A program made the position numbers and the translations under genes. From Actinospica acidithermotolerans (lineage in GTDB: Bacteria > Actinomycetota > Actinomycetes > Streptomycetales > Catenulisporaceae), in NCBI RefSeq assembly GCF_018139625.1, contig NZ_JAGSOH010000034.1:1-60099 (forward strand): a DNA stretch of 60,099 nucleotides. Reading direction: 5' to 3'. The notes under the pieces are model-generated. The model was not told where the DNA came from and did not search any database. It was given only the letters and a program-made list of their open reading frames with translations. Positions 37,488-43,674 of this stretch are shown one piece after another. Position 1 is the stretch's first letter; every line of letters begins with the position of its first letter.

Positions 37488-37650
37488 TACGCCGTGCCGC
37501 GGTGGGGATGACGATGCCGCCGTACCGTGTCGGGGCGACGATTACGGCATGCCGCAGTGAGGGGGACGACGCCGCCGTACCGCGGTCGGGGTGATCTCGG
37601 CACGAGGCGACGACTACGCCGTGCCGCGGTGGAGGGTGACGATGCCGCCG
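37488..37650. repeat. Three imperfect copies of the ubiE 3' end
   Basis: Related 36-base units start at 37488, 37543 and 37615. The last one (37615-37650) encodes the UbiE C-terminus [11 protein letters not shown] on the minus strand; the other two lie beyond the stop codon and still translate to GGIVIPTAARR-like and GGVVVPLTAACR-like strings. They look like decayed tandem duplications of the gene end. Confidence 0.7.
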
Positions 37651-38303
37651 GTCAGGTCGCGCCAGGCGACCTTGGACCAGCCGGAGGCCTGGATCAGGGT
37701 GGCGAGGCCGCGCTGGTCGGGCCAGGCGCGGATGGACTCGGCGAGGTAGACGTAGGCCTCGGGGTTGCTGGCGACCTTGTTGGCGATCGCCGGGAGCGCG
37801 CGCATCAGGTACTCGAGGTAGACCGTGCGCAGCGGTGCGAGGGTGGGGTGCGAGAACTCGCAGACCAGCAGGCGGCCGCCGGGCTTGGTGACGCGGTGCA
37901 GTTCGCGCAGGGCGGCGGTGGTGTCCTCGACGTTGCGCAGGCCGAAGGAGATGGTGACCGCGTCGAAGGTGCCGTCGCGGAAGGGGAGCTTGGTCGCGTC
38001 GCCGGCGACGAAGTCGAGGTAGGGGTTGCGCTTGCGGCCGACCTCGAGCATGCCCAGCGAGAAGTCGCAGGCCACGACGCTCGCACCGGCCTGCTGGAAG
38101 GGGAGCGAGGACGTTCCCGTCCCGGCGGCGAGGTCGAGCACCCGCTCTCCGGGCCGGGCGTCCACGGCCTGGGCCACGGCCCGCCGCCACAGCCGGGTCT
38201 GGCCCAGCGACAGCAGGTCGTTCGTCAGGTCGTAGCGCTCGGCTACTCCGTCGAACATCTCCGCAACCTCGCGCGGCTTCTTGGCCAACGACGCTCTGCT
38301 CAT
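37614..38303 (-). CDS. menG: Demethylmenaquinone methyltransferase UbiE/MenG
   Basis: 229 residues from ATG 38303. SAM-dependent C-methylation of demethylmenaquinone, last ring step. Motifs [35 protein letters not shown] (SAM loop), [20 protein letters not shown] and [17 protein letters not shown] are classic UbiE. A longer upstream ORF extension is not credible because similarity starts at [20 protein letters not shown]. The divergent gap to the lipoprotein gene is only 49 bp. Confidence 0.97.
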
Positions 38304-38352
38304 GGTCCTATCCTGGCACCTTCGGGTAGGTGTATGGGCAAAGGGGCTCGAT
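38304..38352. promoter_or_regulatory. 49-bp divergent promoter region
   Basis: Contains the inverted repeat CACCT-TCGGGT-AGGTG (38317-38332) and AAGGGG as the ribosome binding site for the plus-strand gene. On the minus strand CAGGAT lies 6 bases before the menG ATG, a leaderless-type arrangement or an AGGA binding site. Confidence 0.45.
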
Positions 38353-39951
38353 ATGGTGTCGCGTCGATTGGCTGTGGGGGCCCTGACCTGCGTACTCCTG
38401 CTCGCGGCCGGATGCACGGGAGGTTCGGGCGGCGGCACGCCGGCCTCGGCGTCCCCCGATCAGGGCTCTGCGGGGACCGCGGCGGGCACCGCGGCGGCGA
38501 GCGCCGCGTCGGCGTCGGGGATCGACGTGGCGGCGGAGAACGCGAAAGCCGGCGACCGGTCGTGGCAGATCGACGAGAACGCGCTCGGCGCGCAGGACGC
38601 GATCGAGGGCTACACGAACCTCGCCTCCGTCGCTCCGGGACAGTCCTTCAAGCTGTACGTCTCGACGACGGCCTCCTCGTTCACCGCGACGGCCTACCGG
38701 ATCGGCTACTACGGCGGCGCCGACGGCACGAAGGTGTGGGGGTCGGCCCCGACGAAGGGCGTCCATCAGACGGCGCAGTCCTTCGATTCGTCCACTCGTA
38801 CGGTCGAATGCGACTGGCAGCCCTCGATGACCGTGGACACCTCCGGCTGGGTGCCGGGGGAGTACCTGATCAAGCTCGTCTCCTCGGCCGGGAACCAGCG
38901 CTACGTGCCGCTGCTCGTGCACTCGACCTCGACCGCCGGAAAGGTCGTGCTGGTCGCCGGGATCACGACGTGGCAGGCGTACAACACGTGGGGCGGCTAC
39001 TCGCTCTATCAGGGTGCGAACGGCGGCTACTCCAGCCGGGCGTACGCGGTGTCCTTCGACCGGCCGTACATCGACCCGGACGAGCCGGAGGGCGACGGAC
39101 TGTTCTTCCCCTTCGACCGGGCGCTCGTCTCCTTCGCCGAGCAGCACGATCTGCCGGTCGCCTACGAGACCGACCTGGAGTTGGAGACGAGCCCGCAGCT
39201 GTTCGACGGCGCGCGGGCGATCGTCTCGGACGGGCACGACGAGTACTACTCCGCGGCCATGCGCACGACGCTGACGGACGCGCGGGACCAGCACGGCACG
39301 AACCTCGCCTTCCTCGGCGCGAACTCGATCTTCCGGCACATCCGGTGGGGGTCGACGCAGCTCGGCTCCGACCGCCTGGTGATCTGCTACAAGGACTACT
39401 CGATCGACCCGCTCGCCTCGACCAACCCGTCCGACACCACGCAGGAGTGGCGCTATGCCCCCGACCCGCGGCCGGAGAACGCGCTGACCGGCTCGCTCTA
39501 CCAGTGCAATCCGGTCGACGCCGCGTACGTGGTGTACGACCCGAAGAACTGGATCTTCGCCGGGACCGGCGTCACCCAGGGCACGTCGTTCTCCGGACTC
39601 GTCGGGCCCGAGTACGACCGGGTCGTCGACATCGGGACGACCCCGCATCCGATCGAGGTGCTCAGCCATTCGCCGCTGACCTGCCAGGGGAGCGGCAGCT
39701 ATCAGGAATCCTCGTACTACACGGTCGCGTCCGGCGCCGGAGTGTTCGACGCGGGCACGATGCGCTGGGAGTGCGCGCTCGGCTCCCAGTGCTCCGCGCA
39801 CTTCGGCTCGGCCGCGCGGCAGTTCGTGCGCACGGCGACGCTGAACCTGCTGACGGCCTTCGCGCAGGGGCCGGCCGGCCGGACGCACCCGGCGCAGGAC
39901 AACACCGCGGCCGACGGCGTGCCGAACGGCGAGGGCCTCGGCATCGATTAA
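38353..39951 (+). CDS. Lipoprotein with N,N-dimethylformamidase beta-subunit-like domain
   Basis: 532 residues. Lipobox LLLAAGC (Cys21) and a Ser/Ala-rich linker to about residue 60. The remainder resembles the DMFase large-subunit C-terminal domain: [69 protein letters not shown] and KNWIFAGTG. The family is common in actinobacteria, but substrates other than dimethylformamide are unproven. Extracellular and membrane-tethered, so it probably acts on an external amide or glycan. Not part of the quinone pathway by sequence. Confidence 0.85.
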
Positions 39952-40007
39952 TCCGGCTCTCAGAAGTAATGAATATGTCTTACAAATAGGGCGATTAGAA
40001 CTGGTGC

Positions 40008-41507
40008 GTGCCATCGCCAGTTCGCCGAAGGCTGCTGATCGGAGCAGGTATCGTTCTGCTCGCCGCGCTGCTCACCCGGGTCGCGTGGACCGAGCCGACG
40101 CTTTCCGACGGTTCCAACACCATCCTCGAGGGATGGGATTTCGCGCACGGCGACGTGCTTCTGCACGGCTGGATCCTCTCCGACGTCTCCTTCTACGCGC
40201 TGGAAATCCCGGTCGCGGCATTCAGCGCGGTAGCCCTCGGCGGGAGTTCGGCGGCGGTGCATCTGACGGCTGGTCTGGTCTACACGCTCGTGGTCGCGTG
40301 CACGCTCTGGTGCCTGCGCGACCGCGCGCCGCGCTGGACGCTCGCGCTCGCCGTGCTGCTCGTGCCGCTGTCCGACGCAGTGGCGCGGAAGGCGCTGATC
40401 TCCGGTGTGGACCACCTCGGCTCAAGCGTCTTCATCCTGCTCGCGACGCTGATCGTGGAGCGGCTTCGCGACCGTTGGTGCGCAGCGTGGCTGCTTCTGC
40501 TACTCCTCGCGGTCGGCGAGGTGAGCGACGGCTTCGTCACGTACGTCGGAGTGTGCGCCGTGATCGGGCTCTGCTGCTGGCAGATGCTCGCCGAACGCCG
40601 CCTGGCCTGGGACTATCCGAGGTTCATCGCGGCGGCGCTGCTCTCGGTGCCCGCGGCCCGTCACTTACGCAGCGAGCTGCGGCACCTCGGCGCGTACGCG
40701 ATGTCCTCGCCGAACACAGTCATCTCGCCGCGCTCCGAATGGATGGCGCACCTGCGCAGCACGTGGTTCGGACTCCGCGTGCTGCTCGGGTTCGGGCAGG
40801 TCGGCAGCGGCTTCGCGCGGCTGTGCGAGCTGGCGCTCGGCTGGTCGCTGCTCGTGCTGATCGTCCTCGGCGGGAGCAGAACCCTGTGGCATTGGCGCAC
40901 GAGCCGGGAGCCGCAGCGGATCGCCGTGCTGCTCGTGCCGGGCGCGCTGCTCGCCTACCTGCTCTCCGAGCAGTCGTCCATCGCGGGCAACGCCTTCGAT
41001 CTCGCCGGGATGCTGCCGTTCTGCGCGCTGCTGGCGGCCGAGGCGCCTCCGGGCCGATGGGCCGTCGGACGCGGGGCGGTGCGCTTCGCGGCCGGTGCGA
41101 TGACGGCCTCGGCCGTGGTCTTCGCCGTCGCCCAACCGGCCGCTGCGACTGACTCGTCCGGCCTCATAGCCCGACTGCGCGCACTCCATCTGAGCTACGG
41201 AATCAGTGATTACGGGACCGCGTCGTCGACCACTGTGGACTCGGACCTCGAGGTCGCCGTGCGCGCGGTGGTCTGGAACGGCGGCGGATTCGACGTGTAC
41301 GGCTGGGAGACCAGGACGCCCTGGTACAGCGCTGCGACGCACGACGCGCGGTTCTTCGTCACCTCACCCGGCGGCACGACTCCGGCGGAGGTCGAGTCGG
41401 CGTTCGGGCGCCCCGCGGCGATGTACCGGATAGACGAGTACGAGGTACTTGTCTATTCCTACAACCTGCTGACCCGGGTCGAGCCGTCCGCGCTGCCCAC
41501 CGGCTGA
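40008..41507 (+). CDS. Polytopic membrane protein, unknown function
   Basis: 499 residues from GTG 40008; the 56-bp upstream gap is AT-rich and has no ribosome binding site, but TAGAAC 6 bases before the start resembles a -10. About nine to ten helices fill residues 8-390, then a soluble extracytoplasmic tail of about 110 residues. ILEGWDFAHGDVLLHGWIL between helices 1 and 2 recalls GT-C-type glycosyltransferases, but I see no diagnostic acidic motif. It contains one TTA leucine codon (40665-40667), very rare in this window. Confidence 0.75.
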   Translation: MPSPVRRRLLIGAGIVLLAALLTRVAWTEPTLSDGSNTILEGWDFAHGDVLLHGWILSDVSFYALEIPVAAFSAVALGGSSAAVHLTAGLVYTLVVACTLWCLRDRAPRWTLALAVLLVPLSDAVARKALISGVDHLGSSVFILLATLIVERLRDRWCAAWLLLLLLAVGEVSDGFVTYVGVCAVIGLCCWQMLAERRLAWDYPRFIAAALLSVPAARHLRSELRHLGAYAMSSPNTVISPRSEWMAHLRSTWFGLRVLLGFGQVGSGFARLCELALGWSLLVLIVLGGSRTLWHWRTSREPQRIAVLLVPGALLAYLLSEQSSIAGNAFDLAGMLPFCALLAAEAPPGRWAVGRGAVRFAAGAMTASAVVFAVAQPAAATDSSGLIARLRALHLSYGISDYGTASSTTVDSDLEVAVRAVVWNGGGFDVYGWETRTPWYSAATHDARFFVTSPGGTTPAEVESAFGRPAAMYRIDEYEVLVYSYNLLTRVEPSALPTG

Positions 41508-41529
41508 TAGAGCCGACAATCCCTCCGGC

Positions 41530-41535
41530 TAGACT
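41530..41535 (+). promoter_or_regulatory. -10 element of menJ, leaderless type
   Basis: TAGACT, a consensus actinobacterial -10, 6 bases before GTG 41542. There is no ribosome binding site in between, so initiation at or near the start codon is likely. No clear -35. Confidence 0.55.
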
Positions 41536-41541
41536 TCCGAT

Positions 41542-42819
41542 GTGCAGAGCTTGAGCGAGAACCAGGCCGATGTCATCGTCGTCGGCGCCGGACCGGCGGG
41601 GTCGACGACCGCCTACCACTTGGCGCAGGCGGGGCTCGACGTCCTGCTGCTGGAGAAGACCGCGTTCCCGCGCGAGAAGATCTGCGGCGACGGGCTCACC
41701 CCGCGCGCCGTCACCCAGCTGGTGCGGATGGGCATCGACACCTCCGAGTCCAACGGCTGGCTGCACAACAAGGGCTTGCGCATCCTGGCCGGCGGCGTGA
41801 CGCTCACGCTGGACTGGCCCGAACTGGCCGCGCACCCGAACTACGGGCTCGTCCGGCCGCGCGCCGACTTCGACGAGCTGCTGGCCAGGCAGGCGCGCAA
41901 GGCCGGCGCCCGGGTGCTGGAGAACTGCAACGTCACCGGGCCGATCCTGGACCCGCGCACCTCGCGGATCACCGGCGTGACCGCGAAGCTCGGCCCGGAG
42001 AAGACCGAGACCGAGTTCCGCGCCCCGCTCGTGGTCGCCGCCGACGGCAACTCGACCCGGCTGTCCATCGCCATGGGCCTGCACAAGCGCGAGGACCGGC
42101 CGATGGGCGTGGCCTACCGCGCGTACTACAAGAACCCGCGGCACAACGACGACTACCTCGAGTCCTGGCTGGAGCTGTCCGACGCCAAGAACCCCGACCG
42201 GCTGCTGCCCGGCTACGGCTGGATCTTCGGCATGGGCGACGGCACCTCGAACATCGGCCTCGGCATCCTGGACACCTCCAAGGCCTTCGGGCACGTGGAC
42301 TACCGGGACATGATGCGCCGCTGGCTGGCGAGCACCCCCGAGGAGTGGGAGCTGACCGAGGAGAACCGGACCTGCCCGATCCGCGGCGCCGCGCTGCCGA
42401 TGGGCTTCAACCGCAAGCCGCACTACACCCGCGGCCTGCTGCTGGTCGGCGACGCGGGCGGCATGGTCAACCCGTTCAACGGCGAGGGCATCCCGTACGC
42501 GATGGAGTCCGGCGAGCTGGCCGCGCGGGTGATCGCCCAGGCCAACGCGCGCACCGGCACCTACGCGCGGGAGCTGGCGCTGTCCGACTACCCGCGGATC
42601 CTGGGCGAGACCTACGGCGGCTACTACACGCTCGGCCGGCTGTTCGTGAAGCTGATCGGCAACCCGAAGGTCATGCAGCTGGCCACCCAGCGCGGCCTGT
42701 CGCACCCGATGCTGATGAAGTTCACCCTCAAGCTGCTCGCCAACCTGACCGACCCGCGCGGCGGGGACGCGATGGACCGGATCATCAACGGCATCGCCAA
42801 GGTCACCCCCCGCGCTTAG
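41542..42819 (+). CDS. menJ: Geranylgeranyl reductase family FAD enzyme, MenJ-type
   Basis: 425 residues from GTG 41542. FAD-binding GAGPAGSTTAYHLAQAG, KICGDGLTPRAV, RPRADFDELL and LLVGDAGGMVNPFNGEGIPY. Closest in type to mycobacterial MenJ (Rv0561c), which saturates one isoprene unit of menaquinone. Placement directly before nuo and after menG supports action on the quinone tail. Partial tail saturation is typical of actinobacterial MK-9(Hn). Confidence 0.93.
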   Translation: MQSLSENQADVIVVGAGPAGSTTAYHLAQAGLDVLLLEKTAFPREKICGDGLTPRAVTQLVRMGIDTSESNGWLHNKGLRILAGGVTLTLDWPELAAHPNYGLVRPRADFDELLARQARKAGARVLENCNVTGPILDPRTSRITGVTAKLGPEKTETEFRAPLVVAADGNSTRLSIAMGLHKREDRPMGVAYRAYYKNPRHNDDYLESWLELSDAKNPDRLLPGYGWIFGMGDGTSNIGLGILDTSKAFGHVDYRDMMRRWLASTPEEWELTEENRTCPIRGAALPMGFNRKPHYTRGLLLVGDAGGMVNPFNGEGIPYAMESGELAARVIAQANARTGTYARELALSDYPRILGETYGGYYTLGRLFVKLIGNPKVMQLATQRGLSHPMLMKFTLKLLANLTDPRGGDAMDRIINGIAKVTPRA

Positions 42820-42836
42820 GCACCCGCAGCCGCGGG

Positions 42837-42877
42837 AAAGTCCCCTTCGTCCCGGTTCGGGATGGAGGGGACTTTTT
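42837..42877 (+). terminator. Strong intrinsic terminator after menJ
   Basis: AAAGTCCCCT pairs with AGGGGACTTT, continuing inward through TCG/TGG wobble pairs to TCCCG-GTT-CGGGA (18-bp stem), and ends in TTTTT. It isolates nuo from menJ transcription. Confidence 0.92.
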
Positions 42878-42986
42878 GTCGTCGCGGCGCCTTCCGGGCG
42901 CGGAGATCGGCTTCTACTGTAGGTAGAGAGCCGAAGTCAAAGCGATCTCACGGGTTGGATCATGCGCGGGCGGATCACCCGAAGGA

Positions 42987-43004
42987 TTGTGACCGCACTC
43001 ACAA
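42987..43004. promoter_or_regulatory. Operator candidate 1, CRP/Rex type
   Basis: TTGTGACCGCACTCACAA, with 6-bp perfect arms. It fits TGTGA-N6-TCACA exactly (CRP family) and TTGTGAA-N4-TTCACAA (Rex) with a mismatch in each half. Confidence 0.6.
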
Positions 43005-43078
43005 GCCGAGATCATCACGAAATGTCCGGCTCGTGATCGACGATCATTTCGGATCTATCCGATTGCGGATGGCCTGGG

Positions 43079-43094
43079 CGTGACACAGATCACG
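43079..43094. promoter_or_regulatory. Operator candidate 2, CRP type
   Basis: CGTGACACAGATCACG, 5-bp perfect arms, GTGA-N6-TCAC core. Centre 91 bp downstream of site 1 and about 97-102 bp upstream of the -10 candidate. Confidence 0.55.
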
Positions 43095-43272
43095 AAGCGC
43101 GATGCGGCCCGTGAGGACTACGTTACGGATCAGGCGGAGAAGACTTCATCGGGCCGTGGCGGACATCACATCTGACGCGGCGTAGGATGTCCGCGAGCAA
43201 GGCACGGATGCGGCAAAAGATCACAGTCCCAGGCGAATGGAGCGTGACGCGGCGGCACCCGCCGAGTCGGGC

Positions 43273-43290
43273 TTGTGAATTCCTTCACGA
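43273..43290. promoter_or_regulatory. Operator candidate 3, Rex type, just before nuoA
   Basis: TTGTGAATTCCTTCACGA fits TTGTGAA-N4-TTCACAA with one mismatch. It overlaps the start of the purine-rich ribosome binding region 25 bp before nuoA. Rex, the NADH/NAD+ sensor, is reported to control nuo in Streptomyces (from memory). Confidence 0.65.
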
Positions 43291-43314
43291 GGAGCAAGGG
43301 AGGTGGCGGCGCCA

Positions 43315-43674
43315 ATGGACACCTACGTCCCGGTGCTGATCCTCGGCCTGATCGCGGGAGGCTTCGCGGTCTTCTCGGTCATCATGGGCGCGATGACCGG
43401 CCCGAAGCGGTATAACCGGGCCAAATACGACAGCTACGAGTGCGGCATCGAACCCACCCCGCAGCCGGTCGGCGGTGGCCGCTTCCCGGTCAAGTACTAC
43501 CTGACCGCGATGCTCTTCATCGTCTTCGACATCGAGATCGTCTTCCTCTACCCCTGGGCCGTGGCGTTCGACTCGCTCGGCTGGTTCGGGCTCGCGGAGA
43601 TGTTCCTTTTCATCCTCACCGTCTTCGTCGCCTACGCCTACGTCTGGCGGCGCGGCGGACTCGAGTGGGACTAG
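43315..43674 (+). CDS. nuoA: NADH-quinone oxidoreductase subunit A
   Basis: 119 residues. Three membrane helices and the family signature [20 protein letters not shown] plus [26 protein letters not shown] 43315 is chosen over GTG 43303 because [20 protein letters not shown] aligns with Streptomyces NuoA N-termini and GGGAGG lies upstream. Part of the membrane arm near the quinone site. First of 14 nuo genes on one strand. Confidence 0.97.

Follow-up and report, generated by a model that had tools for sequence, protein, structure and literature searches.

Candidate Rex and Crp-type sites in the control region of the complex I operon of Actinospica acidithermotolerans

The 495-bp gap upstream of nuoA (42820-43314) is best explained as the region that controls the complex I operon, and its array of palindromes would represent regulatory wiring of an already known kind. 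The three palindromes that a sequence-only reading had pointed out there, TTGTGACCGCACTCACAA (site 1, 42987-43004), CGTGACACAGATCACG (site 2, 43079-43094) and TTGTGAATTCCTTCACGA (site 3, 43273-43290), were found exactly as written, the reported distances of 91 and 195 bp between centres were correct, and a fourth, CGTGGCGGACATCACA (site 2b, 43155-43170), which that reading had not included, lies among them. We consider it probable that the region as a whole combines a promoter with the -10 hexamer TAGGAT, a Rex operator at site 3 and Crp-type binding at sites 2 and 2b.

The window, a stretch of 60,099 nucleotides analysed at its full length, is contig C277 of the 7.9 Mb genome of a soil actinomycete whose family takes in Catenulispora. 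The gap separates a geranylgeranyl-reductase-family gene (41542-42819; TIGR02032) from nuoA, encoding NADH-quinone oxidoreductase subunit A (43315-43674, forward strand; NF005922, 214.9 bits, cut-off 155). The start ATG of nuoA at 43315 is kept in the genus, with an in-frame GTG at 43303, and the ribosome-binding site GGGAGG (43298-43303, forward strand, by eye) retains GGGAG throughout the genus. Genes likely for menaquinone metabolism lie beside the nuo genes at 37614-42819, including a UbiE/MenG-like methyltransferase (by eye) and a reductase that resembles MenJ and scores below the cut-off of the MenJ model. A second, divergent nuoA homologue with 38 percent identity (G000:C398:24637-24978; L088) has no Rex match at up to three mismatches. 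A terminator scan after the upstream gene reported none; a hairpin was seen by eye 3' of that gene (GTCCCC at 42840-42845 and GGGGAC at 42867-42872, then five T). Two matches from an Rfam scan for RNA elements (E 0.39 and 0.48) were both under the gathering scores and were taken as chance.

Comparison with relatives and with Streptomyces makes it very likely that site 3 is a Rex operator. With up to two mismatches allowed, a search for TTGTGAA-N4-TTCACAA across the host genome returned eight matches, of which site 3 was the best with one mismatch and the other seven had two. These seven include site 1, a match upstream of rex at 118 bp from its start (hemA follows rex), a place 240 bp before a WhiB-family gene, and a place at the atp genes that is covered by an ORF when this is called from its first start codon but presumably precedes the true start. 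The remaining three have no evident link to the Rex regulon: on contig C6 no ORF passed the filter, on C329 a DeoR-like ORF (by eye) has the match close to its 3' end, and on C407 the match is inside an ORF. In each of the three genus genomes, site 3 is the only match with one mismatch. For the other two species, all five matches of genome G001 and five of the six of G002 are nuo sites 3 and 1 together with places that repeat the atp, whiB and rex site letters, these last having been equated by identical letters with own-genome annotation as the reference; the reversed control pattern gave 0, 2 and 2 forward matches in the host genome, G001 and G002, respectively. A Rex gene was found in one copy in the host (one PF06971 match; NF003992 at 373 bits, cut-off 226), and 86 of 93 nuoA upstream regions among the matches listed have a Rex match with up to two mismatches within 450 bp, leaving 7 without. 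Within the literature covered, no paper combined Catenulispora and Rex. A 2003 paper by Brekasis and Paget reportedly deals with Rex, and a 2012 study by Gao is said to have applied ChIP to Crp in S. coelicolor.

A close precedent is Streptomyces avermitilis, in which Rex acts as a DNA-bound repressor of nuoA1, atp, rex-hem, cydA1 and wblE (PMC5355995). The same text gives a Rex footprint at nuoA1 from -42 to -16, with a mapped start downstream of the Rex site, over the operator TTGTGACCTGCTTCACAT, whose letters are also found before nuoA elsewhere, for example in L048. It places the wblE site, listed in Table 1 of that paper as ATGTGAACGCTTTCACGA and identical in letters to the Rex-type place at the WhiB-family gene of the host, far downstream of the start at +108 to +135, and a roadblock was proposed for it. 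The proposal that the array would be of Rex and CRP type is strongly supported for site 3 by its rank as the best motif in three genomes, by the host's own rex and by the nuoA1 precedent.

The assignment of site 1 is divided between the two regulators. The sequence-only reading had placed sites 1 and 2 closer to CRP, and for site 1 a preference for Crp over Rex is not supported, as it is also among the few Rex-type matches in each genome of the genus. It fits the Crp pattern TGTGA-N6-TCACA exactly and the Rex pattern with two mismatches, has counterparts in both other genomes of the genus, and could therefore belong to either Crp or Rex. Exact TGTGA-N6-TCACA occurs at nine places in the host genome including site 1 (reversed control, 0), and four of the other eight fall inside mechanically called ORFs, two well inside and two at the very start, so that an exact match need not mean a promoter site. 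It is a real possibility, which we hold tentatively, that Rex uses site 1 as well as site 3 as an operator, with two dimers 286 bp apart that bracket the promoter, with only sites 2 and 2b left to Crp. The presence of site 1 among the five Rex-type matches of G001, and likewise among the five plus one of G002, would be consistent with this arrangement, as would the footprinting in S. avermitilis of a Rex target with C for the inner A (TTGTGACCTGCTTCACAT; PMC5355995) and the two Rex-type matches with two mismatches before nuoA in 3 of 10 Catenulispora-group loci (L092-L094). However, site 1 departs from the Rex pattern at two inner letters yet is exact for TGTGA-N6-TCACA in all three species, the reversed control also produced two forward matches by chance in each of G001 and G002, and three of the eight matches in the host genome have no evident Rex-regulon link.

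Between sites 2 and 3 we infer a promoter whose -10 hexamer would be TAGGAT (43183-43188, forward strand; 6 of 6 columns invariant in the genus) and whose possible -35 hexamer is CGGACA (43160-43165, forward strand), recognised by eye 17 bp before it. A consensus promoter scan found no promoter, and the case for a housekeeping sigma promoter (-35 and -10 hexamers 16-18 bp apart) comes from the CGGACA-17-TAGGAT pair seen by eye and from the conservation of the -10 and of its spacing from site 2b: TA[AG]GAT stands 26-27 bp from the start of a GTG-N8-CAC, and 12-13 bp after it, in 84 of 93 nuoA upstream regions among the matches listed. Relative to this putative promoter, site 2 would be centred at about -108, and site 2b at about -32, over the -35 region. 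All 84 loci with this module have another GTG-N8-CAC upstream, the counterpart of site 2 (84 of 84, among the matches listed), at a distance of 32-33 bp in the compared named loci, 30 bp in the Catenulispora group and 76 bp in the host genus.

A Crp-type protein is the likely ligand of sites 2 and 2b, although they fail one strict form of the motif. Each has two mismatches to TGTGA-N6-TCACA, beyond a limit of one, and they are therefore named Crp-like here and not Crp sites. PMC10033298 quotes GTG(N)6GNCAC as the Crp motif of S. coelicolor and GTG(N)8CAC as the GlxR motif, and states that tagged Crp gave no shift of a predicted site. Sites 1, 2 and 2b all have the GlxR form, GTG-N8-CAC, and all depart from the S. 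coelicolor Crp form, with A for G at sites 2 and 2b and C for G at site 1. The host has a Crp ortholog (L135) that matches 3d0s, among the mycobacterial CRP structures, at E 1e-83 and carries cNMP_binding and HTH_Crp_2 domains; it is under the cut-off of the NCBIfam CRP equivalog, a model of the E. coli kind. With this ortholog, the retained type of site and the response of the nuo genes to Crp in Mycobacterium smegmatis, the CRP-type proposal is plausible for site 2.

Sites 2 and 2b might instead be bound by another dimeric regulator, or site 2b might be simply an unusual -35 element, which we regard as rather unlikely. The consensus at sites 2 and 2b lacks symmetry (GTG....GATCAC at site 2) and differs from TGTGA-N6-TCACA. 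With 150 of 220 candidates scored, at least seven places in the genome pass the Pfam cut-off for HTH_Crp_2, which means that the host has further Crp/Fnr-type proteins. Nevertheless, GTG-N8-CAC is the GlxR motif according to the quotation in PMC10033298, and the centre of site 2b varies among genera while its arms are kept, although the arms were required by the search.

The array is also non-random. Across the whole window TGTGA-N6-TCACA with up to two mismatches is not in excess (9 seen against 10.76 expected), and the evidence is accordingly carried by clustering and by the exact or near-exact matches: four of the nine fall in the 495-bp gap, a number reached in 0 of 3000 dinucleotide shuffles of the gap (mean 0.13), and the two Rex-pattern matches with up to two mismatches compare with a shuffle mean of 0.0003, again with 0 of 3000 shuffles reaching two. 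The palindromes are kept upstream of nuoA in close relatives: all three species of the genus carry sites 1, 2, 2b and 3 in an unchanged order. The spacing between sites 1 and 2 (91 bp) and between sites 2 and 2b (76 bp) is the same in all three, and the latter also in the sister genus. In the genus alignment 38 of 38 core columns are invariant, against 19 of 26 inner columns and 208 of 315 others (Fisher p 4e-7), a test in which columns are not independent and core positions were named after the first alignment was inspected, GTG and CAC not having been required. That sites 1 and 2 are chance or neutral and site 3 alone functional is very improbable, since the high background conservation of the gap in the three species (208 of 315 other columns invariant) is outweighed by the shuffles, the invariant core and the site 2 counterparts in every module locus.

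The wider comparison covered 93 nuoA upstream regions: 3 of the genus, 1 of the sister genus, 10 of the Catenulispora group and 79 named loci. Locus L005 of Catenulispora rubra was excluded from the counts because its first 3269 bases are identical to L099, from a genome of the family, and L111-L126 were left out. Because the sample draws on the best 80 of at least 595 stretches, it is weighted to close relatives, mostly Streptomyces, and arm conservation is partly by construction, as the search expressions demanded GTG and CAC. Among the matches listed, the 70 module-bearing named loci go under the names Streptomyces, Kitasatospora, Streptacidiphilus or Actinacidiphila, with one Saccharothrix. 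The nine regions that lack the module comprise four Actinomadura, one Nocardioides, one Antrihabitans and three metagenome-assembled loci.

The position of the Rex operator differs among these lineages. The start of the best Rex match lies 20-23 bp downstream of the -10 in the 70 named streptomycete-type loci among the matches listed, 48 bp in the sister genus, 52-54 or 112-113 bp in the Catenulispora group, 90 bp in the host window and 112-113 bp in its two congeners. The Crp-like pair and the -10 thus stay together and the Rex site shifts. Looping between sites, which had been suggested from their distances, gained no support: sites 2 and 3 are 195, 217 and 218 bp apart in the three species of the genus and 153 bp apart in the sister genus, so their spacing is not fixed.

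In the mechanism that we propose, transcription would start near 43195 from the TAGGAT promoter, which would put site 3 at about +79 to +96, 7 bp before the ribosome-binding site. At a low NADH/NAD+ ratio, Rex on site 3 would block the passage of RNA polymerase, and rising NADH would free Rex from it. A Crp-type protein would act at sites 2 and 2b, with repression as the likelier sign given that site 2b covers the -35 region, and site 1 would be a distal extra site for Rex or Crp. GATCT stands 17 bp after TTGTGA in 59 of 70 named operator-bearing loci among the matches listed; this is in line with the published start, which lies downstream of the operator, and fits a second promoter. The host window has AAGGGA instead of GATCT at that position, so a roadblock on transcription from TAGGAT would be the likelier mode, as proposed for wblE.

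This organisation resembles that of S. avermitilis nuoA1-N1 in the operon, the operator type TTGTGAA-N4-TTCACAA and the co-targets atp, rex-hem and a whiB-like gene, and differs from it in that the host operator starts 90 bp after the conserved -10, by the ribosome-binding site, whereas the footprint there is at -42 to -16. Within what the accessible parts of PMC5355995 describe, the host alone has a second Rex-compatible site far upstream, and the mapped start of S. avermitilis is not at the promoter position inferred for the host. The putative control of an actinobacterial complex I operon by Crp would be shared with M. smegmatis, where deletion of crp1 raised nuoN, nuoF and nuoA 7- to 14-fold and the authors suggest that Crp1 is a repressor, in keeping with a site that covers the -35; this control was shown via expression, and the accessible parts of PMC12713383 mention neither a nuo site nor Rex. 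In Shewanella oneidensis, Crp was reported to act directly on NADH dehydrogenase genes (PMC12210985), but this is a gammaproteobacterium and the second regulator is Arc.

A bolder, and in our view doubtful, extension is that Rex and Crp share an operator at nuo, such that site 1 could be bound by either protein and redox and cAMP signals would compete for the same DNA, while Crp over the -35 and a migrating downstream Rex operator would form a two-step gate on complex I in the Catenulispora relatives and streptomycetes. Taking the same either-protein reading to the common TGTGA-N6-TCACA core in general would be similarly improbable.

Several other elements of the gap were observed. The block GATCGGCTTCTAC-N5-GTAGAG (42905-42928), about 400 bp before nuoA, contains a TCTAC-N5-GTAGA palindrome, is kept in the three species of the genus and in the sister genus, and could represent a further operator or belong to a promoter. 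A genome search with its TTCTAC-N5-GTAGA (42912-42927) gave two forward matches and one reverse match; of these three, two represent a single place on contig C13. The reversed control gave two forward and no reverse matches. The palindrome TCGGATCTATCCGA (43049-43062) is kept in the three species, and a similar one, CCGGATTTATCCGG, precedes nuoA in L092. Between sites 1 and 2, an inverted repeat ATCACGA-N10-TCGTGAT (43014-43037) has changed arms in the other two species, with loss of pairing.

Our search of the literature, of limited reach, found no Crp pair at an actinobacterial nuo operon, and one may be in print. At the level of sequence, these results would widen to the relatives of Catenulispora what has been shown in Streptomyces, the control of complex I by Rex, and they suggest that the Rex operator moves while the remainder of the promoter stays in place. 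They also predict a conserved Crp-like pair at nuo, which could be tested in Streptomyces.
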